DNA from: Actinomycetospora corticicola
Lineage (GTDB): Bacteria > Actinomycetota > Actinomycetes > Mycobacteriales > Pseudonocardiaceae
Direction: 5' to 3'
NCBI RefSeq assembly: GCF_013409505.1
Contig: NZ_JACCBN010000001.1
Span: forward strand, 620,001-684,000
DNA: 64,000 bases
The notes beneath the pieces are model-generated. The model worked only from the letters and a program-made list of their open reading frames with translations. It was not told where the DNA came from and ran no database searches. Below, piece by piece: positions 4,838 to 20,274 of this stretch. The translations under genes were made by a program, and so were the position numbers. Position 1 is the first letter of the stretch, and the number at the start of each line of letters is the position of its first letter.

Positions 4838-5198
4838 CGGACACCAGCTCCACGCTCGTCGGACGCATCCGGGCCGTCGCAGTATCACCCCGCCCGGCGC
4901 TCGCACTCGGACCGGTACGAGCGGGCTCGCGCCGTCATCGTCATCCGTTCGGGACACGACGGCGGCCCGGCGCTACACCCTGCAGATCGACCCGCCGCCG
5001 TCCATCCCCTGCTTCCTTCGGCTCGCCTACGTCGCGCTCGACGGGGCCGCCCTGACGGCATGTGAAGTTGCGACGGCGGAATGGTCCGGTCGCCCCTTCC
5101 CGAACCTGTCGGGACGCTGACTCGGCGCCGTCCGCGCCCACCTCGAGGACCTTGACCGCGCGACGTTGAGCCGGTCCGTCAGTGCCCGAGCTCAGCGC
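4838..5198. other. Gene-free gap between the P450 and the toxin gene
   Basis: The P450 promoter should lie at the left end of this stretch. I see no convincing coding sequence, RNA gene or repeat in the rest. Confidence 0.5.
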
Positions 5199-5597
5199 TC
5201 AGGGCGAGTGCACCTCGACGAGTCGCTCCAGCCCGGCGAAGTCCGCCGGGTTGCGGGTGATCAGCGGGACGGCATTCGCGCCGGCGGTCGCCGCGATCTG
5301 GAGGTCCATCCGGCGAGGGCGTGGATTGCGTCCGGCACGGCGGACCATCGAGGCCATCGTCCCGTACAGCTGCGCGGCAGCGAGATCGAACGGGAGGACC
5401 GGCAGATCGCGCAGGACGGCGTAGTAGCGGTCGGTGCGGGCCCGTCGCTCGATGAGGTCGTCGGTGTCCAGCCCGAACGCGAGTTCGGCCACCGTCACAG
5501 CGCTGACGACCGGGACGGCGTCGGCGAACCGCCCGAGGTCGAGGTGCTCCAGATCAATGAGGGCTGAGGTGTCGAGCAGGACCCGGCCTGTCGTCAT
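5199..5597 (-). CDS. VapC-like PIN-domain ribonuclease toxin
   Basis: 132 residues with the PIN-domain acidic pattern: LLDTSALIDLE near the N-terminus, the conserved Glu in TVAELAFG, and acidic residues in RMDLQIAATA and NPADF near the C-terminus. VapC proteins are Mg-dependent RNases that cut tRNA or rRNA when freed from their antitoxin. The ATG overlaps the antitoxin stop (ATGA), which justifies this start over the longer frame. The target RNA cannot be told from sequence. Confidence 0.85.
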   Translation of the reverse strand: MTTGRVLLDTSALIDLEHLDLGRFADAVPVVSAVTVAELAFGLDTDDLIERRARTDRYYAVLRDLPVLPFDLAAAQLYGTMASMVRRAGRNPRPRRMDLQIAATAGANAVPLITRNPADFAGLERLVEVHSP

Positions 5598-5866
5598 CGG
5601 CCGACCGGGTCGTCGTCGCCGAGGTACTCGTCCGCCCGCTCGCGGTCGGCTCTCCACTGCTCCGCGTTCACCGGAGGAAGGTTCCGGAAGATGTCCTGGA
5701 GCTCGCCCAGAGTGCGCGGGGCCGGCTCCTGCTCACGGGCGTGAGGTACGAGGTCGGCAATCGGCCGACCGTTGCGGGTGACGACGAAGCTCTCGCCGGC
5801 CTCGACCCGGCGCATGATCGACCCGCTGTCGTTGCGGAGCTCCCGCTGCCCGATGGAGTCGCTCAC
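5594..5866 (-). CDS. Phd/VapB-family antitoxin
   Basis: 90 residues. The N-terminus QRELRNDSGSIMRRVEAGES followed by FVVTRNGRPIADLVP is typical of Phd/YefM antitoxins (DNA-binding N-terminal domain). The tail PPVNAEQWRADRERADEYL is an acidic toxin-binding segment. The GTG start at 5866 is chosen because the family N-terminus begins there and a promoter-like TATTCT ends about 6 nt upstream, suggesting a leaderless or nearly leaderless transcript. It overlaps vapC by 4 bp, so the two genes form one operon. Confidence 0.82.
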   Translation of the reverse strand: MSDSIGQRELRNDSGSIMRRVEAGESFVVTRNGRPIADLVPHAREQEPAPRTLGELQDIFRNLPPVNAEQWRADRERADEYLGDDDPVGR

Positions 5867-5900
5867 GCGACTAGAATAGCACTTCTGTTTGATTGTGCTA
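5867..5900 (-). promoter_or_regulatory. Promoter and operator of the toxin-antitoxin operon
   Basis: Read on the - strand, an inverted repeat TAGCAC-N12-GTGCTA spans 5877-5900 and overlaps the -10-like hexamer TATTCT (5873-5878), just upstream of the antitoxin GTG. Phd-type antitoxins repress their own promoters through short palindromes, so this is the likely autoregulatory operator. No clear -35 is visible. Confidence 0.5.
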
Positions 5901-6011
5901 CACGCCTGGTCGGGGTGTCCTCCTCGAGGAACCGAGTCCACGTGACTCGGTTGCGCCGCGACGGTCTGCCTTCCCGACGACGGGTCGGTCACCCTCGGCG
6001 TTCCGCGCCGG

Positions 6012-6677
6012 TCAGCTCTCCCCGGTCGCGCCCGGAGGCTCGTGCAGCGCCCGCAGCCCCGGATCCTCACGGAGCCGACGGAGGCCGACGAAGCGGTAGT
6101 TCTTCGCCGCGCCGAGGGAGATGCCGAGCTCGTCGGCGGCCTCCTGCACCGTCCGGCGGCGCAGGTCGACCAGGTCGATCACCGCCCGTTCGCGCGGCGA
6201 CAGCGACGCCAGCGCCCGGGCGACGACGAGGTGGAAGAGGATCGTGTCCTCGAACGGCTGCGCCGGGTCGGCGAGCTCCAGCACCGCCTCGGCGTCGTGC
6301 TCGACCCGCGCCGTCTCCCGGGCCGCGCGGGTGCCCCACGTGATCGCCCCGTTGCGGACGGCCTGGCGGAAGAGGGCGTCGACCTTGTCGGGGTCGCGCA
6401 GCACCGGCGGGTTCTGCACGACCTTGCGCATCACGTCCTGCAGCAGGTCCTCGGCCTGCTCCCGGTGCCGTCCGAGCAGCGTGCGGGCCAGGGCGAGCAG
6501 CGACGGGCGGGCCCGCTGGTAGTAGGCGAGCAGCACGGTGAGGTGACGGGCGGGGTCGTCGCCGGAGATGCGGCGCAGCCCGGCGCGGGTTGCGGCATCG
6601 ACGTCGGGGGCCACCTCGGCGGGCAGCCACCGGCGATCGAAGCGGGCCAGGAGGGAGAGCCCGTCGTCCGCCGTCAC
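6012..6677 (-). CDS. ECF-like RNA polymerase sigma factor (copy 1)
   Basis: 221 residues. Region 2 is visible in EDLLQDVMRKVVQNPP and the region 4 helix-turn-helix in LSPRERAVIDLVDLRRRTVQ plus EAADELGISLGAAKNYRF. An N-terminal extension of about 60 residues begins with LLARFDRRWLP, a motif shared with the second sigma factor (14968-15648) and the 54-residue protein at 15645. The GTG at 6677 follows a GGGGG-type ribosome site; longer versions run into non-coding sequence. It lies just downstream of the first protease-STAND gene on the same strand but has its own promoter-like element at 6789-6820. No obvious anti-sigma gene is adjacent. Confidence 0.82.
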   Translation of the reverse strand: MTADDGLSLLARFDRRWLPAEVAPDVDAATRAGLRRISGDDPARHLTVLLAYYQRARPSLLALARTLLGRHREQAEDLLQDVMRKVVQNPPVLRDPDKVDALFRQAVRNGAITWGTRAARETARVEHDAEAVLELADPAQPFEDTILFHLVVARALASLSPRERAVIDLVDLRRRTVQEAADELGISLGAAKNYRFVGLRRLREDPGLRALHEPPGATGES

Positions 6678-6788
6678 CGCCCCATTCTCACCCCCTGCCC
6701 CGCCACCTGTCCGGGGCACGGCCGGCGGGCCGTCCGCTCGTGGGCGCCCCCCGTGCCCACGAACGGCGGCCCGTCCGGCCTCCGTCGA

Positions 6789-6820
6789 GGAGGACCACCT
6801 CGGTCGGCGGATGGTTGGGG
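6789..6820 (-). promoter_or_regulatory. Promoter-like element A, upstream of sigma copy 1
   Basis: On the - strand it reads CCCCAACCATCC, 12 nt, then GGTCCTCC. It matches the elements at 10644, 15833 and 15874 in both halves and in the exact spacing. It lies about 110 nt before the sigma GTG, inside the gap between the protease-STAND stop and the sigma gene. Layout and spacing fit an ECF-type -35/-10 pair (CAACC-N16-GGTC). Confidence 0.6.
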
Positions 6821-6828
6821 TGCGCGAG

Positions 6829-9800
6829 CTATTCATCGGCGAGGGAGCACGGCCGCACCTCGGAGGTCCCGGACGGCAGCTCGGTGCGCTCGGTCGCCGA
6901 GAAGTCCCGGTTCTGCGTCTGGCAGAGGCGCACCCGCCACAGGTCGGCGTCGGTCGGGATCGAGAAGGCGACGTCGCCCTCGTCCAGTTCGATCCGGCCG
7001 CCCGCGACCGGCCGCGGCGCGACGCCGGGTGGCAGCGGCACGTCCGCGACCTGCCGGCCCGCGGCCACGTCCCAGATGGCGAGCCGGAACAGCGTCGCGT
7101 CCCACGTCACCGGGCGGTCGGCGCCGTCGACGCCGAGGACCGCGCCGGTGCCCGTCGGCACCGGGACACGGGCCGTCACCGCCCCAGACGGGACCGCGCG
7201 CGCCACGAGGTCGCCGGGGTCGTCGACCGAGAGCAGTCGGTTCGCCTCGAGCAGCATCCCGCCGGCCGCACCCGTCGTCGGGAAGGAGGCGACGATGCCG
7301 CCGGGAGAGAAGAGCCCGATAGCGCCGGGCTCGCGGACGGCGACCTGCGACGCGTCCGGGGAGGCCGCCGCAGCGCCCGTGCCGACCGGCACGGGCGGGG
7401 CGAGCGGGCGGTGCGAGGTCGCCGAGAACCAGGTCAGCGCCCCGTCGGCGCGGTCGACGAGGTCGTCGCCGCCGCGGGCGAGGACCACCGGAGGATCGTG
7501 CGACGGCGGGAGGGGATAGGAGCCCAGAGGGCGGAACCGGGGCAGGTCGTACTCGTCGATGCGCGGCCCGGTGGGGGCGCGGTCGACTGCGAGGAACGAC
7601 CCCGCAGTCGGCGAGACGAGCACGGACGACCACCCCCCGGGAGGCGCGTCGAGGCGGCCGAGCGCCCTCGGGCCGAAGGCGTCGAAGGCGGTCGCACCGG
7701 TCGCGTCCGGCACCACCGCGATGGCGTCGACCGGCCCCTTCAGCACCGGCGGTGGAGTGGCCGAGGGCGCCCGGAAGGTGGGGGAGTCGAGCAGGTTCAG
7801 CCCGTCGACCTGCCCGTGGTCGATGAGCTCGCCCTGCCCGTGGCGGATGTCGAACCGCGGGTTGACGGGGATGCCGACGGCGGCGGACGGGGGCATGACG
7901 GCCGACGCGCTCGGGACCCAGGCGGCCCGACGGCGCCCGTCGGGGAGGTCGACGACCTGGATCGGCTGGGTCGCCGACGTCCCCGGCGCGCCCTCGAGCC
8001 ACACGAGGTGGGCGCCCTCCGCGGTGATCATCGCGGGGCGGCCGGCGCAGCCGTGCGGGCCGGTCGGGACCCGCGTGCGCACGGCGCCCGTGGCGGTGTC
8101 GGCGACGACCACGGTCTCGTCGGGGTCGGTGTCGCACCGGACGGTGACGGTGCCCTGCAGCCCGACGCCGGCGTCGGTCGGGACGGCGCCGACCACCGCG
8201 CCCGTCGTCGCGTCGCGCACGGTGCGGGCACCGTCGGGGGTCGTGATCAGCAGCCGCGTCGGGTCGGCCGTCGGCGCCGCGGTGTCCCCGGCCTCCGGCA
8301 GCCGGGCCACCACCGTCGACGTGAGGGCCTCCAGGTCGACCCGCGAGACGAGGGTGCCGGAGCCGTCGGGTCCTGTGGCGAGCAGGTGGGTGCCGTCCGG
8401 CGTCGCGACGACGGAGGCGACGGCCGAGCCGGGGACGAACCGGGGAGGAGTGGTGGTATTGCGGTCCCACACCCGGACTGCCCCGGTGTCGGTGCGGAGC
8501 ACGACGAAGCGGCCGCCGTCGCTGACCGAGACCGGCCGGGTGTCGGCGTCCCGGCCGGGGACCGTCTCGAAGACCGGGGTGGGGCTGTAGAGCCGGTAGA
8601 CGAACAGCGCCGAGCCGGGGGCGACGACCATGGTGTCCTCGGCCTCCGGGTCGGGCACGAGGACGGCCGCGGGATCGTCCGCGCCGGCGACCGGCATCGT
8701 CGAGGTGGTCAGCCGCCGCTCGACGTAGGCCCTGGCCAGCGCGTTCCGCGCCGTCACGTCGCTCGGGTCGCTGCGGTACGCGGCGAGGGCGAGCTGCGTT
8801 CCCGACGACGGGTCGCCCGGCAGGGCGGCCAGCGAGAGTGCGCCGAGGGTCTCGGCGTTGTGCGTCGCGCGGGCGGCGGCCAGTCGGACACGCGAGACGG
8901 ACACGGTGAGGAGCCCCGTCGTCAGGACGAGGACGAGCAGGACCGCGATGAGGACGAGGCGTCGCCGGCGCTCGCGCGCGCGGCGGTCCCGGCTCGCCGC
9001 GACCAGTGCGTGGACCGTCCCGTCCACGTCGGCGGCGCGGTTCTCGACGTGTTCCTCGGCCTGCTCGAGTGCCTCGGCGCGCAGGACCACCGTCGGGTCG
9101 CGGCGCCAGGTCCGTGCCCGGGCCCGCGCCTCGTCGTGCCAGCGCAGGAAGGGGCCGTCGGCGGCGAGCTGGTCCGCGAGCGGCGACCACCGGTCGACGA
9201 GGGCCCGGTGCGCCGGCTCGGCGACGGGGCGTCCGCCGCGGCCGATCGTCACGACGCGCGCCGCGGCCAGCGTCTCGAGCACCGCGTGTCGGGCGTCGTC
9301 GAGGCCGTCAAGGGGCAGCTCGCCGGGGCCGAACCCGTCGTCGTGCGCGCGCACCAGCCCGAGGAGCAGGGGCCGGGCGACCGCACGGTTCGCCTCGTCG
9401 AGGTCCGCCCAGGCGGCGTCGGCGACCGCGACCGCAGCGGCGCCGACGTCCCCCGGCGGCGTCCCGTCCTCGACGCTGCGGTGCAGCAGCCGTTGCAGCA
9501 GCGCGAGCCCGCCGGGAGCGTCGGCGGCGTCGTCGACGAGGCGGGCGGCCGTCGCGGCGTCGACCGTCGGACCCGGGCGGCTCGCCGCCGGTTCGAGGAC
9601 GGCCCGGCGCAGACGCTCCCGGTCGAGGCCGTCGATCGTCACGGTGACGGCCTGCAGCGCGGGGTCTCCGGCGATCCGCTGCCAGCGGTCCGCCCGGGCG
9701 GTCCCGACGACGGGTCGGGTCTGCTCGCGCAGCCAGGCGGCCGGGTCGGGGTGGAGGTCGAGGCGGTCGGCGATCACGACGTCGGGTGCGGCGGCCCGGA

Positions 9801-10563
9801 GCCCGGCCTGCAGCAGGGAGGTGGCGCCCTGCCCGGAGCCGGCGGCGATGACGACGACGCCGTGCTCGGCGAGGACCTCCCGGCAGCGGGCCGTCTCCTC
9901 CTCCCGGCCGACGAACAGATCGTGGTCCTCCGCGGTGAACGCCCGCGCACCCGGGAAGGGGTTGGCGAGGACCTCGGGGGCGAGGGGGAGGACGTCGTCG
10001 GCGGTCAGGGCGTAGGCCGTGCGGCCGCGCGAGAGGCGGTCGTCGGTGACCGCGAGCCCGAGCACCGTGCCGGTCGTGGCGTCGAGGACGGGCGCGCCGC
10101 TGAAGCCCGGGCCGATCGTGGATCCGTCGTCGACGGCGAGCTGGAGCCAGCCGCTGCCTTGGACCGCGCGTAGCCGCCCCTCGGCCCACACGCCGTCCTC
10201 CCGGCCGACCGGGAAGCCGACCACCCGGAACGCCGTGCCCCAGGGGCGCGGTCGCGTCCACTCCGGCACGACGACGGCGGGGGCCGGTGCGTCGAGGTCG
10301 AGCAGCGCGATGTCCCCGCCGCCGTCGGCCGTCGGCGGTGCCCACCGGCGGATTCGGCCGCTGCGGGAGGGCGTGCCAGGCAGGAACGGGAGGTCGATCC
10401 GGACCCCGTCGTCGGGGGCCTCGTCGGCCACCGCGTCGTGCCCGAGCGCGGTGGCGACGACGTGGGCGCAGGTGGCGAGCAGTGACGGCGTCAGCAGGAC
10501 GCCCGCGCCCACCGCCACCCCGTCGGCCGTGCAGACCCGCGCCACGGCACCGTGCTGCTCCAC
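6829..10563 (-). CDS. Trypsin-like protease / degenerate STAND ATPase / beta-propeller membrane protein
   Basis: 1244 residues. An N-terminal trypsin-like domain keeps a plausible catalytic triad: His34 (LATCAHVV), Asp84 (GGDIALL) and Ser155 (GPGFSGAP). A STAND-type NTPase region follows after LFVGREEE (about 217), but its P-loop reads GSGQGATS (about 242-249), lacking the lysine, and no clear Walker B is seen. A helical region, one membrane segment (LIAVLLVLVLTTGLL) and a long C-terminal beta-propeller-like part follow. The GTG at 10563 aligns with the start of the paralogue at 14965; an open frame continues far upstream, but only antisense to the kinase gene. It probably senses or cleaves a partner; no target is known. 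Confidence 0.75.
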   Translation of the reverse strand: MEQHGAVARVCTADGVAVGAGVLLTPSLLATCAHVVATALGHDAVADEAPDDGVRIDLPFLPGTPSRSGRIRRWAPPTADGGGDIALLDLDAPAPAVVVPEWTRPRPWGTAFRVVGFPVGREDGVWAEGRLRAVQGSGWLQLAVDDGSTIGPGFSGAPVLDATTGTVLGLAVTDDRLSRGRTAYALTADDVLPLAPEVLANPFPGARAFTAEDHDLFVGREEETARCREVLAEHGVVVIAAGSGQGATSLLQAGLRAAAPDVVIADRLDLHPDPAAWLREQTRPVVGTARADRWQRIAGDPALQAVTVTIDGLDRERLRRAVLEPAASRPGPTVDAATAARLVDDAADAPGGLALLQRLLHRSVEDGTPPGDVGAAAVAVADAAWADLDEANRAVARPLLLGLVRAHDDGFGPGELPLDGLDDARHAVLETLAAARVVTIGRGGRPVAEPAHRALVDRWSPLADQLAADGPFLRWHDEARARARTWRRDPTVVLRAEALEQAEEHVENRAADVDGTVHALVAASRDRRARERRRRLVLIAVLLVLVLTTGLLTVSVSRVRLAAARATHNAETLGALSLAALPGDPSSGTQLALAAYRSDPSDVTARNALARAYVERRLTTSTMPVAGADDPAAVLVPDPEAEDTMVVAPGSALFVYRLYSPTPVFETVPGRDADTRPVSVSDGGRFVVLRTDTGAVRVWDRNTTTPPRFVPGSAVASVVATPDGTHLLATGPDGSGTLVSRVDLEALTSTVVARLPEAGDTAAPTADPTRLLITTPDGARTVRDATTGAVVGAVPTDAGVGLQGTVTVRCDTDPDETVVVADTATGAVRTRVPTGPHGCAGRPAMITAEGAHLVWLEGAPGTSATQPIQVVDLPDGRRRAAWVPSASAVMPPSAAVGIPVNPRFDIRHGQGELIDHGQVDGLNLLDSPTFRAPSATPPPVLKGPVDAIAVVPDATGATAFDAFGPRALGRLDAPPGGWSSVLVSPTAGSFLAVDRAPTGPRIDEYDLPRFRPLGSYPLPPSHDPPVVLARGGDDLVDRADGALTWFSATSHRPLAPPVPVGTGAAAASPDASQVAVREPGAIGLFSPGGIVASFPTTGAAGGMLLEANRLLSVDDPGDLVARAVPSGAVTARVPVPTGTGAVLGVDGADRPVTWDATLFRLAIWDVAAGRQVADVPLPPGVAPRPVAGGRIELDEGDVAFSIPTDADLWRVRLCQTQNRDFSATERTELPSGTSEVRPCSLADE

Positions 10564-10643
10564 CCCGCGTGACCCCCTCGTGCCTCGGGAGTGTGACACG
10601 TCTTCCTGAGCGGGGCGGTCGCCGTTGGAAACCCGTGGATCTC

Positions 10644-10675
10644 CCCCAACCTTCCGGCTTCCGCTGTGGTCCACC
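10644..10675 (+). promoter_or_regulatory. Promoter-like element B, upstream of the Ser/Thr kinase
   Basis: CCCCAACCTTCC (10644-10655), 12 nt, then GGTCCACC (10668-10675), 45 nt before the kinase GTG. It has the same sequence and spacing as elements A, C and D. Confidence 0.65.
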
Positions 10676-10719
10676 TCGATGACGGGTGTGAAGGACGTCG
10701 GGGGTGGGGAGGGGGAACG

Positions 10720-12888
10720 GTGGTCGGCGGCGAGGAGTTCGGGCCCTACCGGCTGCAGCGTCTCATCGGGCGCGGCGGCATGGGAGAGGTGTTCCAGGCC
10801 TATGACGTGGGACAGGACCGGGAGGTCGCGGTCAAGCGCCTGCTCGGGCACATGGCCGACGACCCGGACTTCCGGAAACGGTTTCAGCGTGAGTCGCGGG
10901 CAGCAGCCCGCCTGCGCAACCCGCACGTGGTGCCGATCCACACGTACGGCGAGATCGACGGACGTCTCTTCATCGACATGCGGCTGGTCAACGGTTGCGA
11001 TCTCGAGCGGCTGTTGTTGGAGGAGGGGCGCCTCGCGCCGGAGCGAGCGGTGGCGATCGTCGGGCAGGTGGCCAATGCGCTCGAGTCGGCGCACCACGCG
11101 GGGCTCGTCCATCGGGACGTCAAGCCGTCGAACATCCTGTTGGACCGCGACTTCAGCGACGAGGACTTCGTCTACCTCGCCGACTTCGGGATCACCCGCG
11201 CCTCCACGGGGCGCTCCACCTCGCTGACGGCGAGCCACGTCGTGGTCGGCAGCCTCCAGTACATGGCGCCCGAGCAGTTCGACGGGGTCTCGGGGCCGGC
11301 TGTGGACATCTACTCGCTGGGCTGCGTGCTCTTCCAGTGCCTCACCGGGGTCCCGCCCTTCGAGGTCGACGGGTTGCCGTCGTTGATGAAGGCCCACACC
11401 GAGAGCGCCCCACCTGCTCCGTCGGAGCGGTGTCGTGAGATCCCCGCCGGTTTCGACGACGTTGTCGCCCGGGCGATGGCGAAGGACCCGGCCGACCGGT
11501 ATGCCTCGGCCGCGGAGTTCGCCAAGGATGCGCGCCGGGTCGTGCTCCCCCACGATCCGCACCCGACGGGCGGCACGCGCGTGCTGGACCCGCCGGAGCC
11601 CGACACCGAGCTTGCCGATCTGCCCGTATCGTCGTCGGCGCCGACCGAGGTGACCCTGCGCGCCGACGGCCCCGGGTTCCCGCTCCGGGGCGCTCCGACA
11701 GGAGCCCCCGAGCCGGCCGGACCGGCGAGCGCCGACGGCCGTGGGGGCGCGGCCGGAGGGTCGGGGCGCCGTTCTCTCGGCGTGGCGCTCCTCGCGGTGG
11801 CTCTCGTGGCCGCCGTCCTCGTGGCCGTCGGCGTGATCGTGGCCAACTCCGGCTCCGAGCCGACCGCGGGCCCTGGCACCGCGGTCCCTGCCCCGGCCGA
11901 CGACGACCGTCCGACCGTCGCGATGAGCCTCGCCCAGGCGACGGTGGCCGGCACCTTCCCCACCAACGGTCCGCCGGAGACGGTCGCGGTCTCGCCGGAC
12001 GGCCGATCGGCCTACCTGACGATCACCGGCGAGCATCCCGCCGTCGAGGTCCTCGACATCGAGAGCGGGCAGGTACTCACTGATGTCCCCGTCCCCGGCC
12101 CGCCCTACTTCATCGGGCTCTCGCCGAGCGGCGAGGACGCCTACGTCACCTACTACGACCGCAGCCAGGACCAGCTCGTCATCGGGACGATGGACACCCG
12201 GCTCAACGAGCTCGACGGGGCGATCCCCACGGGTCAGCGTGCCGATCAGGGCTCCGCGTTGACCTGGCTCTTCGGCTTCGCGAGCTCGCCGGTCGACCCC
12301 CACCTGCTCTACGTGCCCAACATGAACGCCTCGACGGTGTCGGTGCTCGACCCCGAGAAGAAGGCCCCCGTCGCGCAGATTCCAGTGCCCGCGAGCCCCC
12401 ACTGGGTGGCACTCACCCCGGACGGGAAGCGTGCCTACGTCACCAACCACGTACCGGGCCAGATCACGGTGATCGACACGACGACGAACAGCGTCACCGG
12501 GACGATCCCGATCGGGTCCGGCCTCGCCCCGCACAGCATCGCCGTCTCGCCGGACGGGTCGTTGGCGGAGGAGGTCAACTACGACGGCAACTCGGTCACG
12601 TTCATCGACACCCGGACCAACACCGTCGAAGGCACGACCCCGCTCCCGGACGGACCGCAGAGCATCGCGTTCGCTCCCGACGGACAGCACAGCTACGTGG
12701 TGAGTGAGGACGCCAAGGCCGTCAGCATCGTCGACAACCGGACCCACCAGGTGACGCAGACGATCCCGGCCGGGGACGATGCCTCCATGATCGCGGTGAC
12801 CCCGGACGGGACGAAGGCGGTGGTGGCGAACAAGGGAGCCAACGACGTCATGATCCTCACGGTGGGGCAGGCGCCACCGGCGCACTGA
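10720..12888 (+). CDS. Membrane Ser/Thr protein kinase with extracytoplasmic beta-propeller sensor (PknD-like layout)
   Basis: 722 residues. The N-terminal Hanks-type kinase has the glycine loop IGRGGMGEVF, catalytic Lys39 (VAVKRLL), HRDVKPSN (131-138), DFG (155-157) and APEQ. A proline/glycine-rich linker and one membrane helix (VALLAVALVAAVLVAVGVIV) follow. The C-terminus holds repeated YVTN/NHL-like blades such as VAVSPDGRSAYLT, VALTPDGKRAYVTNH and IAVSPDGS, which would lie outside the cell. I chose the GTG at 10720 because GGGGAGGGGG precedes it closely and the kinase domain starts there. It is divergent from the first protease-STAND gene and its 3' end overlaps the convergent second one by 32 bp. 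The nearby FHA-ABC transporter is a likely phospho-partner. Confidence 0.9.
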   Translation: MVGGEEFGPYRLQRLIGRGGMGEVFQAYDVGQDREVAVKRLLGHMADDPDFRKRFQRESRAAARLRNPHVVPIHTYGEIDGRLFIDMRLVNGCDLERLLLEEGRLAPERAVAIVGQVANALESAHHAGLVHRDVKPSNILLDRDFSDEDFVYLADFGITRASTGRSTSLTASHVVVGSLQYMAPEQFDGVSGPAVDIYSLGCVLFQCLTGVPPFEVDGLPSLMKAHTESAPPAPSERCREIPAGFDDVVARAMAKDPADRYASAAEFAKDARRVVLPHDPHPTGGTRVLDPPEPDTELADLPVSSSAPTEVTLRADGPGFPLRGAPTGAPEPAGPASADGRGGAAGGSGRRSLGVALLAVALVAAVLVAVGVIVANSGSEPTAGPGTAVPAPADDDRPTVAMSLAQATVAGTFPTNGPPETVAVSPDGRSAYLTITGEHPAVEVLDIESGQVLTDVPVPGPPYFIGLSPSGEDAYVTYYDRSQDQLVIGTMDTRLNELDGAIPTGQRADQGSALTWLFGFASSPVDPHLLYVPNMNASTVSVLDPEKKAPVAQIPVPASPHWVALTPDGKRAYVTNHVPGQITVIDTTTNSVTGTIPIGSGLAPHSIAVSPDGSLAEEVNYDGNSVTFIDTRTNTVEGTTPLPDGPQSIAFAPDGQHSYVVSEDAKAVSIVDNRTHQVTQTIPAGDDASMIAVTPDGTKAVVANKGANDVMILTVGQAPPAH

Positions 12889-14965
12889 TCGCGGATCCGG
12901 TCCCGCACAGGCCGTCGCCGGGTGCATCCAGACCGGCCGCGAGCAGGGACCCGGCCGATACCCCGAGGACGACCACGACGGCGAGCGTCGCCCGACGCAG
13001 GCGGCGCTCGCGCCGCCGACGGGACAGTCCGGCCGCGATGAACTCCTGCTCGGGCGCTCGGAGGTCGCCCGCCCGTTCTGTCGCCCAGCCCGCAGCGACG
13101 TCGAGGGCGGCGCCACGCAGCAGGACGTCGCGGTCGTGGGTGGGAGCCCACGCCGCGACGCCGGCCTGCAACCCCGCCCGCCAGCGGAGGAACGCGTCGT
13201 CCGCCTGCAGCCAGCGCTGCAGCCGGGGCCACCGGTCGATCAGGGACTGATGCGCCAGCTCCGCGACGTCCTCGGCCGCGCCCGGGCTGATGACGACGAG
13301 GCGCGCTGCGGCGAGGGCCTCGAGGACACGGCGCTGCCCGGGGGCGAGCGGAGCGAGGGGGAGCGGTCGCCGCACGAACCCGGTCTCCGTGGGTCGCGTC
13401 ATCGCGAGCAGCAGGGCACGAGCTCGTGCACGCCTACCGACGGGGATCGCGGTCCACTCCCGCTCGGCGGCCGCAGCGAGCGCGCCCTGCACGGTCCCCA
13501 CTCGGGCGTAGGCCTCGATCGTCAGTCGTCCGTCGTCCGCGGCATCCCAGAGTTCCGCGAGGAGCACCGCGACGAGAGGGAGTCGACCGGGCTCGTCGCC
13601 GGCGTCATCGACGATCCGTGCGACAAGGCCCGGATCGAAGGACGGGCCGGGAACCCGCGCCGCCGGCTCGGCGACCGCGGCCCGGAGGTGGGCACGGTCG
13701 AGGGGGAGGACCCCCACGAGGGCTCGCTGCACGACCGGCGCGCTGCGACCGTCGAGGAGGTCGTCGAACGTCGCCCACCGCGCCGTGACCCCCACCCGGA
13801 CACCGAGCGCGACGAGTAGTCCGATCACCTCGAGCGCGGTGTGCGCGGCCGGGGGAGAGGAGAAGGCGAGGTCCTCGAACTGGTCGACGGCCACGAAGAG
13901 GCGACCGCTCGCGACCGCGCGGGCGTCCCCGATGCCGACGGGTCCGACGGCGCCGGCGACCACGGTGCGGTCGCCCGGCCGTGCCGAGAGCACACGCGAC
14001 CAGTCGCGCAGCGTCCACCTCTCGACCGCATCCGGGGTGCGGACCGCGCGGGTCCGGCCGGACGGGTCGGGTGCGACGGCCTCGGTGAGAGCGGCCGCGA
14101 ACGCGGTGATGACGGCGGGTCGGGAGGCGACCCCGGCGAGGCGGACCCGGGCCGGCCGCAGGCCGCGCACACGCGCCTCGGGCAGCACCCCGGCGGTGAG
14201 CAGCGACGACTTGCCCGCCCCGGAGCCGCCGACGAGCACCACGAGCCCGTCGCGGTCGAGGACCTGGAGGGCGCGGGCGAGCTCGTCCTCGCGGCCGAAG
14301 AAGAACTCGCGGTGGGCCTCGTCGAAGGCGGCGAGTCCGCGGTAGGGGTTCACGAGCAGCTGCGGCGCCTGGGCGAGCACCCGGGCGATCGGGATCGCGT
14401 AGGCGGAGCGCGCCGGCCCGTCGCCCCGGTCGGCGGCGACCGCCATCGCGATCACCGCGTCGCCGCACTCGTCCAGGATCGGTGCCCCGCTGAACCCGGG
14501 CCCGATCTCCTCCGCCCCGGACAGCTGGATCCAGCCGCTGCCCTGCTCCCGGCGCAGGACCCCGGCCGCCCAGACGCCGTCCTCCCGGCCGGGCGGGAAC
14601 CCGGCGGTACGGAAGGGGCGACCCCAGGGTTCCGGTACGCGGCGGGTCGACGGGACCGCCACACCGACCGCCGCGTCGAGTTGCAGCAGAGCGACGTCTC
14701 CCGTGCCGTCCGATGCCGGCGGCCACCACCGCCACACCGTGGCGCGGCGGAGTGGCCCGTCCGGTGCGAACGGCAGGTCGACCTCGAGCTCGGCGTCGGG
14801 GGCCAGGTCCGGCACGTCGTCATACCCGAGCGCGTCGCCGACCACATGGGCGCAGGTCGCCACGAGGCGGGGCGCGAGCAGCACCCCGGCGCCGACAACG
14901 GTGTCGCCCGGGGCTCGAATCCGTGCCACGGCGTGTCCGACCGTGGTGTCGGAGCCGGTCACCAC
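12857..14965 (-). CDS. Trypsin-like protease fused to an intact STAND ATPase, C-terminal membrane anchor
   Basis: 702 residues and a paralogue of the 6829-10563 product. The triad is His40 (VATCAHVV), Asp90 (GTGDVALL) and Ser159 (GPGFSGAP). The STAND NTPase is canonical: GGSGAGKSS at about 246-254 and Walker B-like LFVAVDQFEDLAF. A membrane helix (LAVVVVLGVSAGSLLAAGL) closes the protein about 25 residues before the C-terminus; there is no beta-propeller, unlike the paralogue. The GTG at 14965 (or 14962) comes 2 nt after the sigma stop, so the two are co-translated. Known STAND-protease fusions are signalling or conflict switches in which NTP binding controls the effector; that role is inferred here. 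Confidence 0.82.
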   Translation of the reverse strand: MVTGSDTTVGHAVARIRAPGDTVVGAGVLLAPRLVATCAHVVGDALGYDDVPDLAPDAELEVDLPFAPDGPLRRATVWRWWPPASDGTGDVALLQLDAAVGVAVPSTRRVPEPWGRPFRTAGFPPGREDGVWAAGVLRREQGSGWIQLSGAEEIGPGFSGAPILDECGDAVIAMAVAADRGDGPARSAYAIPIARVLAQAPQLLVNPYRGLAAFDEAHREFFFGREDELARALQVLDRDGLVVLVGGSGAGKSSLLTAGVLPEARVRGLRPARVRLAGVASRPAVITAFAAALTEAVAPDPSGRTRAVRTPDAVERWTLRDWSRVLSARPGDRTVVAGAVGPVGIGDARAVASGRLFVAVDQFEDLAFSSPPAAHTALEVIGLLVALGVRVGVTARWATFDDLLDGRSAPVVQRALVGVLPLDRAHLRAAVAEPAARVPGPSFDPGLVARIVDDAGDEPGRLPLVAVLLAELWDAADDGRLTIEAYARVGTVQGALAAAAEREWTAIPVGRRARARALLLAMTRPTETGFVRRPLPLAPLAPGQRRVLEALAAARLVVISPGAAEDVAELAHQSLIDRWPRLQRWLQADDAFLRWRAGLQAGVAAWAPTHDRDVLLRGAALDVAAGWATERAGDLRAPEQEFIAAGLSRRRRERRLRRATLAVVVVLGVSAGSLLAAGLDAPGDGLCGTGSAISAPVAPAPP

Positions 14966-14967
14966 GG

Positions 14968-15648
14968 CTACGCCGCGTGGTGCAGATCGGCGAGGTCCGG
15001 ATCGGCCCGAAGGCGCCGCAGGGCCACGAAGCGGTAGTTCTTGGCGGTGCCGAGCGCGATACCGAGCTCGGCGGCAGCGTCCTTGATCGTCATGCCCCGG
15101 ACGTCGACCAGTTCGACCAGCGCCCGTTCGCGGGGGGAGAGGGCCGCGAGCGCCCGCGTGAGAACGAGGTGGAACACGACCGGGTCCTCGACGCCCGCGG
15201 CACGATCGGCGAGTCGGGCGACGGCCTGGTCGTCCGGACCACGTCGATGACGCTCGCGGCCGGCTCGGGTGCCGACGGTGACGGCCTCGTTCCGGACCGC
15301 CTGGAACAGGAACGGAGCCTCCTTGCCCGGCTCCCGCATGGTGGGCGGGTTCTGACACACCTTGCGCATGACCTCCTGCACGAGGTCCTCCGCGAGGTCG
15401 GCGTGGGCGCCGAGGAGCTGGCGGGCGACGGCGTGCAGACGGCCCCGCTCCGCGCGGTAGGTGCGGAGGAGGGCGGTGAGCCGTACTCGCGCGTCGTCGG
15501 CCGATATGCGCTGGAGCCCGGTCCGGTACCTCTCGTCGACCGCTCGGGTCCCGAGCGACGGTGTCCACCGGGAGTCGAAACGGCGCAGCGAGACGGCGAG
15601 CCAGTCGGCGCGCGGGCGGGGGACGACTCTCAGGTCGACGACGCTCAT
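14968..15648 (-). CDS. ECF-like RNA polymerase sigma factor (copy 2)
   Basis: 226 residues, clearly homologous to copy 1. Region 2 reads EDLVQEVMRKVCQNPP and region 4 reads LSPRERALVELVDVRGMTIK plus DAAAELGIALGTAKNYRF. The N-terminal extension carries LRRFDSRWTP. The ATG overlaps the stop of a 54-residue upstream gene by 4 bp, and its own stop is 2 nt from the protease-STAND GTG, giving a three-gene operon. Element C in front of the operon may be its own target promoter, which would make it autoregulated; that is an inference from the shared motif. Confidence 0.83.
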   Translation of the reverse strand: MSVVDLRVVPRPRADWLAVSLRRFDSRWTPSLGTRAVDERYRTGLQRISADDARVRLTALLRTYRAERGRLHAVARQLLGAHADLAEDLVQEVMRKVCQNPPTMREPGKEAPFLFQAVRNEAVTVGTRAGRERHRRGPDDQAVARLADRAAGVEDPVVFHLVLTRALAALSPRERALVELVDVRGMTIKDAAAELGIALGTAKNYRFVALRRLRADPDLADLHHAA

Positions 15649-15809
15649 CGCGTCGCACCTCCCTCGGATGCGGGATCGGGTCGGTCAGGTGGGTTCACGA
15701 CGGACAGCCGGCGTGGCGGCGTCCGCAGCGAGGACGGGAGCCAGCGCGGGTCGAACCGACGGAGGGCGTCGAGGATCGGGTCGGCCGATCTCCGGAAGGT
15801 GCGGTGCAT
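15645..15809 (-). CDS. 54-residue protein carrying only the sigma N-terminal RFDxRWxP motif
   Basis: The small product includes ILDALRRFDPRWLPSSL, which matches the N-terminal extensions of both neighbouring sigma factors (RFDRRWLP and RFDSRWTP) but has no sigma region 2 or 4. A good ribosome site (GAGAGG, 7 nt before the ATG) and a 4-bp overlap with the sigma copy 2 start support that it is translated. It could be a regulator that competes for whatever the sigma N-terminus binds, or a leftover duplication used only for coupling. No family is recognised. Confidence 0.6.
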   Translation of the reverse strand: MHRTFRRSADPILDALRRFDPRWLPSSLRTPPRRLSVVNPPDRPDPASEGGATR

Positions 15810-15832
15810 GGCGGTCCTCTCGTCACTGCTCA

Positions 15833-15864
15833 GGACGACCAGCGGGACCGGCGGAAGGTTGGGG
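15833..15864 (-). promoter_or_regulatory. Promoter-like element C, upstream of the small gene-sigma-protease operon
   Basis: On the - strand CCCCAACCTTCC (15864-15853), 12 nt, then GGTCGTCC (15840-15833), about 24 nt before the ATG at 15809. With element D it forms an inverted pair between divergent operons. Confidence 0.65.
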
Positions 15865-15873
15865 GCAGGGCGT

Positions 15874-15904
15874 CCCCAACCTTCGCGGGACGGTGCGGGT
15901 CCCC
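15874..15904 (+). promoter_or_regulatory. Promoter-like element D, upstream of the FHA-ABC transporter
   Basis: CCCCAACCTTCG (15874-15885), 12 nt, then GGTCCCC (15898-15904), 33 nt before the GTG at 15938. Its left half pairs with element C as an inverted repeat (GAAGGTTGGGG / CCCCAACCTTC), so the site could also be a hairpin, but the matching GGTC halves favour two back-to-back promoters. Confidence 0.6.
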
Positions 15905-15937
15905 GCGTGTGATCCGTTCGCACCGCCAGGAGGACCC

Positions 15938-18070
15938 GTGTTGAACCCGTCTGCATCCCGGACCGTGGCCCGGTCCTCTCGCCCCGGCATCGTGGACCTT
16001 CGACCCCGACCGCTTCCGAGCGCGGACCCGGTCTGCCGACAGGGCCGGATCTCGGCGGTGCACGACGTGCGGGCTCGTACCGCGCGGATCTCGATCGGAC
16101 GCGACGAGCGCAACGACGTGGTGGTCGAGGATCTCCTGGCATCACGGCGCCACGCCGAGCTCCTTCGTCGTGGCGATCGCTGGCTCCTCGTCGATCTCGG
16201 CTCGGCGAACGGGACCTTCGTCAACGGGCGGCGGGTGCGCACCCGGGCGATCGGGCCCGGCGACGTGGTCGCGATCGGACACGTACTGCTCCATCTCGAG
16301 GACGACCGGTTGGTCGAGCGGCTCGACGTCGGATCGGTCGGCTTCCGAGCCGCGGGACTCACGGTCCGGACGGGCGTCGGCGTCCCCCTGCTCGACGACG
16401 TCGGGTTCTCCCTCGCACCGCGGTCGCTGCTCGCCGTGGTCGGACCGAGCGGCGCGGGGAAGTCGACCCTGCTCCGCGCCCTCACCGGATTCCGCCCGGC
16501 CGACGAGGGTCGCGTCGAGTATGCGGGCCGTGATCTCTACGCCGACTACGAGGAACTGCGGGCGCGGATCGGGCTGGTCCCGCAGGACGACATCCTGCAT
16601 CCGCAGCTCACGGTGCGGCGGGCTCTCGACTACGCCGCCGAGCTGCGCTTCCCCGCCGACGTGTCGCGCATGGAGCGGGCGAGGCGGGTGGCGGAGGTGA
16701 TCGCCGAGCTCGATCTCGTCGAGCAGGCGGGCCGGACCATCCGCAGCCTCTCGGGCGGGCAGCGCAAGCGGACGTCGGTCGCGCTCGAGCTGCTCACCCG
16801 GCCCTCCCTGCTCTTCCTGGACGAACCGACCTCCGGACTGGATCCGGGTCTGGACAAGTCGGTGATGCGGACGCTGCGCGGACTCGCCGACGACGGCCGC
16901 ACGGTCGTCGTCGTCACCCACAGCGTCGCCAACCTGGACCAGTGCGACCGGCTCCTCCTGCTCGCCCCCGGCGGCAAGGTGGCGTATTTCGGACCGCCGG
17001 CGGAGGCGCCGACCCACTTCGGGTGCACCGACCTCGCTGACGTCTTCCTCGCCCTGCAGGAGCGTCCGCACGACGACTGGTCCGGCCGCTTCCGGCGGTC
17101 ACGGCTCTGGGCGCAGTACGTCTGGTCGGGGGAGTACCCCCTGCCGTCGCGGCCGACCGCCGTGCCCGCCGTGCCTGCGGCCGCGCTGTCGCCGGCCCGA
17201 CAGGTCTCGGTGCTCTGCCGTCGGTATCTCGCGGTGATCGCCGCCGACCGGCAGTACCTGGCGTTCACGGCAGTACTGCCCCTGGTGCTGAGCCTGCTCG
17301 CACACGCACTGCCAGGCGACAGCGGGCTCTCGATCGCTCGCCAGATGCAGGGCGTCCGCGGCGCCCCGAACACGGTCTGGTTGGTGCTGGTGGTCGGAGC
17401 GACGTTGATGGGCACCGCCGCCGCGATCCGGGAACTGGTGAAGGAGCGCGAGATCTACCGGCGGGAACGGGCGATCGGACTGACACGCGGCGCGTACCTG
17501 ATCTCGAAGCTCGTCGTGCTGGGAACGATCGTCGGCCTCCAGGCGGTGGTGCTCGGAGTCGTCGGCACCGCCGGTCGACCTGCACCGGATGCGGCGGTCC
17601 TGCTCGGATCCTCCACCACTGAGGTGGTGATCGCGCTGGTTGCGGTGTCGGTGGCCAGCGTGACGCTCGGACTCCTCGCCTCCGCGCTCATCGACAACGC
17701 CGACCGCGGCATGCCGCTGCTCGTCCTGCTCGCGATGCTGCAGTTCGTCCTGTCCGGCGCCCTCGTCCAGATCGGAGACCGACCGGTCCTCGCCGAGCTC
17801 GCCTGGCTGGTGCCTGCTCGCTGGGGCTTTGCGGCCGGTGCCGCCACGATCGGTCTGCCGACCGGGCCGGACACCTTCTACCCCTCCGTGGATCCCCTGT
17901 GGGAGCACACGACAGGTGCATGGCTCCTCGATCTCACCATGCTCGGGGTCCTGACCGCCGGATGCGTCATCGGCACGTGGCGGCTCCTGTGCCGTCTCGA
18001 TCCGATTCGCAGGAGAACTGCCTCCACATCGACCCCACCTTTCTACCGTCGGCGTCGTCTCCAGGCGTGA
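15938..18070 (+). CDS. FHA domain-ABC ATPase-ABC2 membrane fusion (Rv1747-like)
   Basis: 710 residues. The FHA domain spans about 45-115, with ISIGRDERND, SRRHAEL and GSANGTFVNGRRV as phosphothreonine-binding elements. The ABCG/White-type ATPase follows: Walker A GPSGAGKST, signature LSGGQRKR, Walker B LLFLDEPTSGLD. About six membrane segments of the ABC2 type run from about residue 435. The GTG has an excellent ribosome site (AGGAGG). In mycobacteria the similar Rv1747 is controlled by a neighbouring Ser/Thr kinase through its FHA domains; here the kinase at 10720 is the obvious candidate. Export of a lipid or glycan precursor is likely but unproven. Confidence 0.88.
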   Translation: MLNPSASRTVARSSRPGIVDLRPRPLPSADPVCRQGRISAVHDVRARTARISIGRDERNDVVVEDLLASRRHAELLRRGDRWLLVDLGSANGTFVNGRRVRTRAIGPGDVVAIGHVLLHLEDDRLVERLDVGSVGFRAAGLTVRTGVGVPLLDDVGFSLAPRSLLAVVGPSGAGKSTLLRALTGFRPADEGRVEYAGRDLYADYEELRARIGLVPQDDILHPQLTVRRALDYAAELRFPADVSRMERARRVAEVIAELDLVEQAGRTIRSLSGGQRKRTSVALELLTRPSLLFLDEPTSGLDPGLDKSVMRTLRGLADDGRTVVVVTHSVANLDQCDRLLLLAPGGKVAYFGPPAEAPTHFGCTDLADVFLALQERPHDDWSGRFRRSRLWAQYVWSGEYPLPSRPTAVPAVPAAALSPARQVSVLCRRYLAVIAADRQYLAFTAVLPLVLSLLAHALPGDSGLSIARQMQGVRGAPNTVWLVLVVGATLMGTAAAIRELVKEREIYRRERAIGLTRGAYLISKLVVLGTIVGLQAVVLGVVGTAGRPAPDAAVLLGSSTTEVVIALVAVSVASVTLGLLASALIDNADRGMPLLVLLAMLQFVLSGALVQIGDRPVLAELAWLVPARWGFAAGAATIGLPTGPDTFYPSVDPLWEHTTGAWLLDLTMLGVLTAGCVIGTWRLLCRLDPIRRRTASTSTPPFYRRRRLQA
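18033..18059 (+). promoter_or_regulatory. Weak fifth copy of the promoter-like element
   Basis: CCCCACCTTTC, 12 nt, then CGTC, 39 nt before the ATG at 18098. It differs from elements A-D by one missing A, one C-to-T change and CGTC for GGTC, and overlaps the end of the transporter gene. Correct orientation and spacing make it worth listing. Confidence 0.35.
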
Positions 18071-18097
18071 CATCCATCCACGAGAAAGGCGGACACC

Positions 18098-18697
18098 ATG
18101 ACCCTGCGCTTTCCAGGCGACCGGATTCGGGCCGTCGTCGTCGGGGCGACCGTCGTTGCGGTGATCGGAGTGGGCGGTGCCCTCGCGCCGGCCGCGTGGG
18201 CGGCTCCGATGCCGTCCGGAGCTCCCTGCCAGCCCGAGCAGTCGACGCTGGACGCCGTCAGAACGCGCATCGCCGCGCACAACGCGGCGGCGCCTGCCCA
18301 GCCGCACGCGGCCGACCCGAACGTCTACAACGCCGAGGTCGAGCAGTACAACGCCGAGGTCACGGCGTTCGACGCGCAGGCCGACGCACTGGCGCAACAG
18401 CAGAACGCGGCCCTCGCGGCACTGCGGCAGTGTCTGGCGCGCCACGGCGTCATCGTGCAGGGCGGCCCGCAACCCCCGACCCCGACGAACCCCCCAAAGA
18501 CCGACCAGCCGCAGCCGACGTCGCCGCCCGCACCGGAGAACGCGCCCGAACCCGAGCCGTTCGATGTCCAGGAGAACATCCAGAAGGCGTTGGACTGGTT
18601 GGACGACCGACTCGAGGAACTCGACGAGATGTCGAAGAAGGACGGGTCGACCGACCACGACTGCCCGCCGAACGAGCAGAAGCACGGAACGGCCTGA
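18098..18697 (+). CDS. Secreted coiled-coil protein of unknown function
   Basis: 199 residues with a signal peptide: charged MTLRFPGDRIR, hydrophobic AVVVGATVVAVIGVGGALAP, then a cleavage-like AAWAAP. The mature part has helical, alanine/glutamine-rich segments with two YNAEV copies, a proline-rich linker, and an acidic helical tail (KALDWLDDRLEELDEM). No enzyme motif is seen and I do not recognise the family. It starts 27 nt after the FHA-ABC stop, with an AAGGCGG ribosome site, so it probably belongs to the same unit and may be a periplasmic partner. Confidence 0.65.
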   Translation: MTLRFPGDRIRAVVVGATVVAVIGVGGALAPAAWAAPMPSGAPCQPEQSTLDAVRTRIAAHNAAAPAQPHAADPNVYNAEVEQYNAEVTAFDAQADALAQQQNAALAALRQCLARHGVIVQGGPQPPTPTNPPKTDQPQPTSPPAPENAPEPEPFDVQENIQKALDWLDDRLEELDEMSKKDGSTDHDCPPNEQKHGTA

Positions 18698-18984
18698 ATC
18701 CCGTCCGTCTCATCCACCTGTGATCACAAGTATCCGATTCATCACGATATTCCCGATCGTCGATCATCCATCGGAATCGTCCGTCACCGGAGGACAATTT
18801 CTCCGGAGATCCAGTAGCGCGAGAGCCTGCTCGGACGAATACACCCGCGCACGCGCTCGGCTCCGAGATCGGTTTTCGTTCCGCCCCGCCCGATGAACAG
18901 CGGTGGACTCGTCCGAGGCGTGCGTGCCCGGCGACCGCACACGCCCCGCACGCCTTCGACGTACCTATCCCACGGGAGTTCGCC

Positions 18985-20274
18985 ATGTCGTCGTTCCATC
19001 GCACCACCACACGCACCGGGCTGGGCGCCGCCGGAGTCGCCGCCGCCCTGCTCCTCCTGCCGACCGTTGCGTCCGCAGCACCTGTTCTGCCGTCGCAGTG
19101 CACGCAGACCGGCACCACCGTCACGTGCACCTACCTCGCGTCCGGTGGCCAGCAGACCCTCGCGGTGCCCGCGGGAGCGACCGCCGTCTCCGTCGTGGTC
19201 AAGGGCGGCGCGGGTGGTCGGGGCGGCGCCGGTGGGACCGGTCGTGCCGGAGGTGCCGGCGGCTCCGGGGGAGTGGTCACCGGGTCGTTGACCGGCGTGG
19301 CGGGCGTGACTCTGCGCATCGTGCCCGGACCCCTCGGAGCCAACGGCACCGACTCGGGGAACGGCGGCGGCGACGGCGGAGCAGGCGCCGGCACCGGCGG
19401 CGGCGGTGGCGACGGAGCAACGGTGGTGGGCACCTCGGACAACGGCGGTGCGGGCGGTGCGGGCGGCGGCTCGTCGGCCGTCCTGCGGGACGACACGGCC
19501 CAGAACCTGGTCGTCGGCGCGGGGGGCGGCGGAGGCGGCGGCGGAGGCGGCTACGAGGGCGACTCGGCGCCCACGTCGGGTCCGGCCGGCGGCGGGGGAG
19601 CGGGCGGTGCCGCAGGCACCGACGGCGCCCCCGGTCGTGGTCAGGGGACGGCCCCTGGTGGGAAGGCCGCATCGAGCGGGTCCCCGAACGGCGCGGAGGC
19701 GCCCGGCGCCGCGTTGCCGGGTGCCGGCGAGCCGAGCTACGGCGCGGGTGGTCCGGGCGGTGGTGGCGGCGGGGTCGAGGGCGGCGGCGCCGGCGGCTTC
19801 GCGAACGAGACCGGCGGCGGCGGTGGCGGTGGAGGGAGCAACCTCGTGCCGAGCGGCGGGTCTGCGACGACCACCAACACCGGCGGTGGCTCGGTGACCA
19901 TCACCTACTCGACGACCTCGTCGACCCCGACGCCCACGCCGACCTCGACGTCCGTCCGCGGAGACGTGCAGTTCGGGTCCGGGTATCGCGCCTCGATCGA
20001 CGTGCGCGGCACCGCGACCGGCGGGTCGGGCTCGTGCGCGGTCAGCGCCGGTACCGAGCGCGCCGTCTGTCGATCGATCACGTCGGTGACCCGCTCCGGG
20101 AACACGGCCACGATCAAGGGCACCGCGGTGTCCCGCGCCGGGCTCGTCCCGTTCAGCACCACGGTGGTCGACGGAGCGCGGCCCGGAGTCCGGGGGAGCG
20201 ACACGGTCACCGTCACCGTCGGCGGGCGGACGGTGACCGGCACCGTCACCCGCGGGGACCTCTCGGTCGGTTGA
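18985..20274 (+). CDS. Secreted glycine-rich surface protein
   Basis: 429 residues. A signal peptide (GLGAAGVAAALLLLPTVASA) is followed by a small beta domain (TVTCTYLASGGQQTLAVPAG), then about 220 residues of GGAGG-type repeats, a Thr/Pro linker (STPTPTPTSTS) and a C-terminal beta-rich domain (VQFGSGYRASIDV, SITSVTRSGNTATIKGTAV) that resembles short cell-surface or post-COAP-type modules; that last match is tentative. The glycine block is reminiscent of PGRS-like or structural surface proteins. It is a single-gene unit with its own hairpin terminator. Confidence 0.72.
   Translation: MSSFHRTTTRTGLGAAGVAAALLLLPTVASAAPVLPSQCTQTGTTVTCTYLASGGQQTLAVPAGATAVSVVVKGGAGGRGGAGGTGRAGGAGGSGGVVTGSLTGVAGVTLRIVPGPLGANGTDSGNGGGDGGAGAGTGGGGGDGATVVGTSDNGGAGGAGGGSSAVLRDDTAQNLVVGAGGGGGGGGGGYEGDSAPTSGPAGGGGAGGAAGTDGAPGRGQGTAPGGKAASSGSPNGAEAPGAALPGAGEPSYGAGGPGGGGGGVEGGGAGGFANETGGGGGGGGSNLVPSGGSATTTNTGGGSVTITYSTTSSTPTPTPTSTSVRGDVQFGSGYRASIDVRGTATGGSGSCAVSAGTERAVCRSITSVTRSGNTATIKGTAVSRAGLVPFSTTVVDGARPGVRGSDTVTVTVGGRTVTGTVTRGDLSVG

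Follow-up and report, generated by a model that had tools for sequence, protein, structure and literature searches.

A probable ECF-type promoter element recurs with a sigma factor-STAND protease locus of Actinomycetospora corticicola

We analysed a 64-kb stretch of Actinomycetospora corticicola DNA (the window; C1:620001-684000 of genome G000, a single contig of 6,166,488 bases), in which a short element resembling a promoter of extracytoplasmic function (ECF) sigma factors lies in front of genes for sigma factors, a STAND protease, a Ser/Thr kinase and a transporter. The bounds of eight window genes were set by hand, and element positions were judged against these. ECF sigma factor 1 (6012..6677, minus strand) contains sigma2 and sigma4 (Pfam Sigma70_r2 and r4 above the cut-off) and an N-terminal FDRRW motif. 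ECF sigma factor 2 (14968..15648, minus) is 55% identical to sigma 1 and was assigned by this alignment and by its best PDB sequence match, a sigma factor named SigL, which we take to be the M. tuberculosis protein with a TGAACC-like promoter. Both have sigma2 and sigma4 only, the domain composition of ECF group IV. A 54-amino-acid protein with the motif RRFDPRWLP and no sigma domain (15645..15809, minus) is encoded ahead of sigma 2, its stop codon overlapping the sigma 2 start (ATGA).

Two protease genes accompany the sigma genes. STAND1 (6829..10563, minus) shows the trypsin-like motifs TCAHVV, DIALL and GFSGA, an nSTAND1 domain (the only Pfam family found in it) that has lost the P-loop lysine, and a C-terminal extension. 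STAND2 (12857..14965, minus) shows trypsin-like triad motifs, an nSTAND1 domain with the intact P-loop GGSGAGKS and a C-terminal hydrophobic segment. The Ser/Thr kinase (10720..12888, plus), with HRD and DFG present and a C-terminal YncE-like beta-propeller, is convergent with STAND2, and the 3' ends of the two genes overlap by 32 bp (12857-12888). The transporter (15938..18070, plus) combines, according to Pfam, one FHA stretch, an ABC ATPase and an ABC2 membrane part in a single chain. The gene of a secreted coiled-coil-like protein of no Pfam family (18098..18697, plus) starts 27 nt past it and probably belongs to the same operon.

A preliminary description of this DNA had reported four identically spaced copies of the element, each upstream of a gene in the right orientation, and both observations stood. 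A pattern search of the window found all four as CCCCAACCWTCS-N12-GGTCS with zero mismatches and a gap of 16 between CAACC and GGTC; all are intergenic, overlap none of the eight hand-set genes and are directed at one such gene each. P1 (6792..6820, minus; CCCCAACCATC-N13-GGTCC) lies directly past the STAND1 stop and faces sigma 1, 115 nt from its GTG; in the related genome G015 a site likewise lies directly past a STAND stop and before a sigma gene (L037 11489). P2 (10644..10672, plus) faces the kinase, 48 nt from its GTG. P3 (15836..15864, minus) faces the operon of the 54-amino-acid protein, sigma 2 and STAND2, 27 nt from the ATG, and P4 (15874..15902, plus) faces the FHA-ABC transporter, 36 nt from its GTG; the -35 halves of P3 and P4 stand back to back with 9 bp between them. 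The weaker copy noted before the secreted coiled-coil-like gene was also found, as P5 (18032..18060, plus; ACCCCACC...CGTC), within the 3' end of the transporter open reading frame and 38 nt before that gene. On the matrix described below P5 scored 13.0 bits versus 23.8-26.8 for P1-P4. No site was found upstream of the second secreted gene (18985).

The exact form CCCCAACCWTC-N13-GGTC occurred four times in the 6.17-Mb genome, always in this locus, and a reversed control pattern did not occur at all; the frequent genome-wide random matches that the preliminary description had proposed to look for were thus not seen with the exact form. With one mismatch allowed there were nine extra matches (control 4), all within coding-like frames. 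With three mismatches the window gave six matches where 2.81 were expected, and six were reached in 4 of 100 shuffles. The loose pattern by itself is unimpressive, and the rarity resides in the exact form. Since the strict pattern was derived from the window sites, we took the genome-wide count, which is partly circular, as a measure of rarity and not as proof. The real test of the element is in the relatives.

Employing an extended pattern (CCCCAACCNT-N14/15-GGTC), we scanned 18 genomes of the genus. Nine matches were found in two genomes that carry the sigma clade, G000 (4) and A. termitidis (G006; 5), all within sigma loci; those of A. termitidis fall on contig C27 at 37,663-63,578, the 26-kb stretch with its three sigma genes. 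The 14 genomes of the genus without the sigma clade, three of them less than 90% complete, gave two matches in total, one in a coding-like frame and the other not, and the control pattern gave one. The other two carriers, G015 and G012, had no match to the extended pattern; each contained one intergenic sigma-locus site that departs from the strict pattern at two positions, the G012 one preceding the kinase gene. Of 48 loci from a sigma search of the contigs, only one came from a close relative, A. termitidis; the remaining 47 are sigma factors of 25-34% identity.

Counted at E <= 1e-20, the sigma clade comprised at least 11 copies in 8 of 390 genomes of the family and none in 393 other genomes of the class sample; seven first-pass candidates were scored per genome, and copies may be missed. 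The site preceded 8 of the 11 sigma copies or their operons. It lies directly before G000 sigma 1 and the sigma genes of G015, G110 and G297, and reaches four others through one or two intervening genes: the 54-amino-acid gene for G000 sigma 2, a radical-SAM gene and a 127-amino-acid gene for G006 sigma A, a 182-amino-acid membrane-type protein gene for G006 sigma B, and a 165-amino-acid DUF6585 protein gene followed by a gap of about 216 nt for G396. The kinase orthologues within sigma loci (G000, G006 and G012) were all preceded by the site, in G006 before an 86-amino-acid gene that precedes the kinase. Conservation upstream of orthologues, which the preliminary description had named as a check, was therefore found for kinase and sigma genes. 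Outside the sigma loci, the controls taken from kinase matches (5 of 17) and FHA-ABC matches (7 of 20) showed no comparable site, the best scoring 12.3; one FHA-ABC control locus (L137) ends 124 nt upstream. Homologues of the FHA-ABC transporter occur in 15 of the 18 genus genomes, so the copy at this locus seems to have been recruited.

An N-terminal FDxxW extension was found in 8 of the 11 sigma factors, as FDxRW in seven and FDPGW in G006 B, and was absent from those of G012, G006 C and G396. The site was present for 7 of the 8 copies with the extension versus 1 of the 3 without it. The acidic core-binding motif of region 2.2 reads AED in four of the five closest sigma factors and ADD in the fifth, followed by L(L/V)Q(D/E).

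To examine four sigma loci from other genera (G110, G297, G340 and G396), we applied a 16-position matrix trained only on the 12 Actinomycetospora sites. In three of the four loci the best locus-wide match lay ahead of the sigma gene or its operon, or ahead of a neighbouring gene. G110 had its two best matches, both intergenic, at 18.0 (46 nt before a 215-amino-acid gene) and 14.5 (54 nt before sigma); G297 had its best at 11.3, 53 nt before sigma, and G396 at 21.1, 81 nt ahead of the gene that precedes sigma. From these genera, ten 200-nt upstream regions were each compared with 400 shuffles, and four beat them: the score was reached by no shuffle for the G110 sigma gene, the G110 gene at 7172 and the G396 gene at 8707, and by one for the G297 sigma gene. 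The 215-amino-acid protein behind the strongest G110 site (L106 7172-7819, plus) has no Pfam family, and its gene is convergent with a trypsin-STAND gene.

Both halves were retained across the 12 genus sites, with a gap of 16 bp in ten and 17 bp in two. All 16 sites (12 in the genus and 4 in other genera) face a start codon, at 27-54 nt in 12 and at 81-158 nt in the remaining four (those of G396, G000 sigma 1, the G012 kinase and G015 sigma). AAC is present in the -35 half of 11 of the 12 genus sites, the G015 site having CCACC; the -10 half is GGTC in 11 and AGTC in one. CGTC was found at the G110 sigma site and in the weak window copy; the sites of other genera include both CGTC and AGTC as -10 halves. 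Of the -35/-10 pair CAACC-N16-GGTC put forward in the preliminary description, the 16-bp gap holds for all four window copies, and neither the fixed spacing nor the invariant GGTC extends to all relatives. A section of PMC8103513 gives AAC in the -35 element, CGT in the -10 element and positive autoregulation as hallmarks of ECF promoters, CGT being an early one that no longer defines them and autoregulation not being strictly defining.

Judged from these comparisons, the element is genuine, and it is both specific and recurrent. We propose, with a probability of roughly 0.85, that it is the -35/-10 promoter of a narrow FDxxW clade of ECF sigma factors linked to trypsin-nSTAND1 proteases and that it defines a local autoregulated regulon. 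The sigma, protease, kinase and transporter genes would very probably be turned on together as a small self-amplifying circuit. The single autoregulated circuit of the preliminary description is supported to this extent at the level of sequence, the site recurring with the sigma clade and at its operons.

Several observations weigh against this proposal. As had been noted before, no site precedes STAND1 (best matrix score 1.9 in 10564-10760, minus strand). None was found before the sigma genes of G340, G012 and G006 C, and the G340 locus gave no matrix match at all. Six of the ten upstream regions in other genera were unremarkable relative to shuffles, including those of G340 sigma (161/400), G340 STAND and G110 STAND and the one directly before G396 sigma (311/400). 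Two unrelated sites in the 64-kb window scored 11.5 and 10.3, so the 11.3 of G297 is supportive mainly by its position. With one mismatch, A. termitidis gave ten extra matches (control 4), one in a sigma locus and nine elsewhere. The window sites served to build the strict pattern; among the eight training sites from relatives, five were chosen by eye from 2-4-mismatch lists, and two of these five were exact at a 17-bp gap. When genomes were left out one at a time, two sites scored low (L036 13942, 9.5; L035 16530, 16.6), the other ten scoring 19.6-26.7. Finally, CGT, the early hallmark of the -10 element, is not found in the 12 genus sites.

One other explanation concerns P1. A large leader hairpin (6722..6778, minus) lies between P1 and sigma 1, in a leader of 113 nt with a folding energy of -77.1 kcal/mol (z -4.9). 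The 155-nt leader of G015 (L037 11520-11674, plus) is a structural counterpart in the same arrangement with different letters (-95, z -5.3); when the pair was aligned, 9 of 46 predicted base pairs had changed on both sides yet were kept, a count from two sequences that includes some pairs outside the main stem. The G012 kinase leader folded no better than shuffles (z 0.54). The hairpin is not a dispersed repeat, its own copy alone matching well (E 5e-33; next best 4e-4), and an Rfam scan of 5000-20000 gave no family at the cut-off (one chance match). The hairpin could attenuate sigma 1. It is unlikely that P1 does not drive sigma 1 and that the hairpin ends the transcript, leaving a short structured RNA or an attenuated leader: no T run follows the hairpin, the structure is seen in two sequences only, and the 53-54 nt between site and sigma start in G110 and G297 leave no room for such a hairpin.

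The element might instead be the promoter of another, unlinked ECF sigma factor, with the local sigma genes as mere targets. G000 has nine sigma-like matches in all, and the G012 site precedes the kinase and not the sigma gene, as this explanation would allow. We consider it improbable: 13 of the 14 genus genomes lacking the clade have 4-12 other sigma-like matches, yet the 14 together give only the two pattern matches mentioned above, and the site recurs at the clade's own operons in other genera.

It is also improbable that the element is a transcription-factor operator whose resemblance to a -35/-10 pair is incidental. At CCCCAACCTT, the -35 half is of unusual length beside the typical AAC core, and P3 and P4 are arranged back to back as in some operators. 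On the other hand, the 17-bp gap at two genus sites is more in keeping with a sigma promoter than with an operator, as are the two conserved halves 16 or 17 bp apart with a start codon 27-54 bp away at 12 of 16 sites. Moreover, the site and the sigma clade occur together, and Pfam found no other DNA-binding regulator, and no anti-sigma family, among seven scanned window reading frames (two of which match no family). That four similar GC-rich stretches had simply been picked by eye has a negligible chance despite the mild enrichment of the loose pattern, because the exact form occurs nowhere else in the 6.17 Mb of the genome, the element recurs independently in A. termitidis and other genera, and the genus scan (nine matches in the G000 and G006 sigma loci versus two in 14 non-carriers) rejects a chance origin.

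Taking the element as a promoter of the FDxxW clade, we infer that the site is read by sigma 1, sigma 2 or both. Because both sigma genes lie behind the site, the circuit would be positively autoregulated. At rest, the sigma factor may be held inactive by a partner that recognises the FDxxW extension. The sigma factor would be freed upon a signal that the trypsin-nSTAND1 protein(s) sense, perhaps together with the kinase, and would then fire P1-P4, boosting its own synthesis along with that of kinase, protease and exporter. In an AlphaFold model of sigma 1 (mean pLDDT, the predicted local distance difference test, 71.3) the first twenty residues reach about 60-70 and residues 21-39 are below 50, and with such low confidence at the N-terminus we make no statement on docking.

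In this scheme, short FDxxW proteins of 54, 95 and 135 amino acids may serve as decoys that draw off the inhibitor of the sigma factor. PhyR, a sigma-mimicking anti-anti-sigma protein, offers an analogy. The 54-amino-acid protein matches sigma N-termini over 12-23 residues (E about 1e-4 without composition correction). The 95-amino-acid protein of G006 (L036 13583-13870, minus) and the 135-amino-acid protein of G012 (L038 10920-11327, minus) have the FDxxW motif and a sigma2-like region and no sigma4; against small local databases, their best sigma matches reached 1.5e-11 and 1.5e-14, respectively, without composition correction, and 1e-9 and 5e-10 with default settings. The 54-amino-acid protein is encoded behind P3 and the 95-amino-acid protein behind a site of its own, the weakest of the training sites; the 135-amino-acid protein is probably reached through read-through from the kinase. 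A family search with the latter two proteins found no further stand-alone protein, only sigma N-terminal halves and one weak G350 match.

In G006 and G396, a membrane-type protein is encoded between promoter and sigma (the 182-amino-acid protein, L035 13302-13850, minus; the DUF6585 protein, L109 8707-9204, plus); the two are weakly similar (5e-05) and are possible anti-sigma candidates. In A. termitidis the region extends into a cluster (L036 1108-12994) that encodes a TPR-containing PknG-like kinase, a vWA protein and the third sigma copy, which is without the FDxxW extension.

Sigma and trypsin-nSTAND1 genes form a recurring pair, found in the sigma stretches of seven of the eight genomes; no such protease was found in the 19.9 kb around the G012 sigma gene. 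Pfam recognised the trypsin-nSTAND1 fusion in STAND2 and in the G015, G110 and G396 proteins, and the trypsin part of STAND1 was assigned by its motifs and by 59% identity to the G015 protein. The His, Asp and Ser protease motifs were all matched in six of eight proteins. In G006 B the Ser motif is GFSGT, present though outside the pattern, and in G297, where the gene call starts late, only the Ser motif was matched. The STAND1 P-loop reads GSGQGATS, and its G015 orthologue gives no Walker A match; perhaps STAND2 is the ATP-switching protein and STAND1 a pseudo-NTPase partner. PADLOC matched the kinase to PD-T4-6 type kinase models, which we took as generic, gave marginal matches for STAND2 and the G110 protein, and gave none for STAND1 or sigma 2. 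We therefore do not claim a defence label for the locus.

Beside the locus in the window is a pair of genes for a PIN-domain protein and a Phd/YefM-like antitoxin (5199-5866, minus), the antitoxin falling just below the Pfam cut-off. G340 (L107 10267-10560, plus) and G297 (L108 8939-9235, minus) share a small secreted-looking protein (53% identical) encoded beside the sigma-protease pair.

None of the papers listed in our literature searches dealt with this sigma clade or its promoter. Several known systems resemble parts of the locus. Like autoregulated ECF sigma factors of group IV, its sigma factors have sigma2 and sigma4 only, and they are associated with an AAC-type -35 element, a 16-17 bp gap and a site before their own operon; the locus differs by the CCCCAACCTT -35 element, the mostly GGTC -10 element and the N-terminal FDxxW extension, and no anti-sigma family was recognised among the window proteins scanned here. 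ECF43 sigma factors are activated by a Hanks kinase, as described for EcfP-PknT and EcfK-PknS in parts of PMC8999054 and PMC13147305. A Ser/Thr kinase gene is also present here; however, most ECF43 factors have lost the acidic core-binding motif, its acidic residues being replaced and a Thr conserved, whereas it is kept in the present clade (AEDLLQD and alike), and the kinase gene is absent from five of the eight sigma loci. Control of the ECF43 type was rejected because of the retained motif. PknF and Rv1747 (PMC5549992, in part) represent an FHA-ABC exporter regulated by a Ser/Thr kinase. Kinase and single-chain exporter likewise share this locus; Rv1747 has two FHA domains and the transporter here one, and here both genes lie behind a putative ECF-type promoter.

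Two further systems couple a protease to an ECF sigma gene. The EACC2-caspase systems (PMC8195603) are predicted conflict systems with protease proteins and an ECF sigma gene; they have a caspase instead of a trypsin and different neighbours, and the portion of that source available to us describes no promoter. The type III CRISPR system CalpL-CalpT-CalpS, as outlined in part of PMC11417357, comprises a Lon protease, an anti-sigma and an ECF sigma factor. A defence-type protease is likewise encoded with an ECF sigma factor here, although CalpL is a SAVED-Lon protein and the proteases, examined at this locus, are of the trypsin-nSTAND1 type; here the protease would act on the sigma circuit. It is a tentative and rather doubtful idea that the locus is an innate circuit independent of CRISPR, with a STAND protease as the switch of an ECF sigma factor that reprograms transcription of the locus encoding it, and with sigma-fragment proteins as decoys for the inhibitor. 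For a rare clade of sigma factors that is coupled to STAND proteases of the immune type, the present analysis provides a promoter code open to testing and delimits a small regulon, and a promoter of such specificity and rarity is a candidate orthogonal part. Should the protease indeed govern the sigma factor, signalling from protease to sigma would also exist as a system independent of the CRISPR type III accessories from which it is known.

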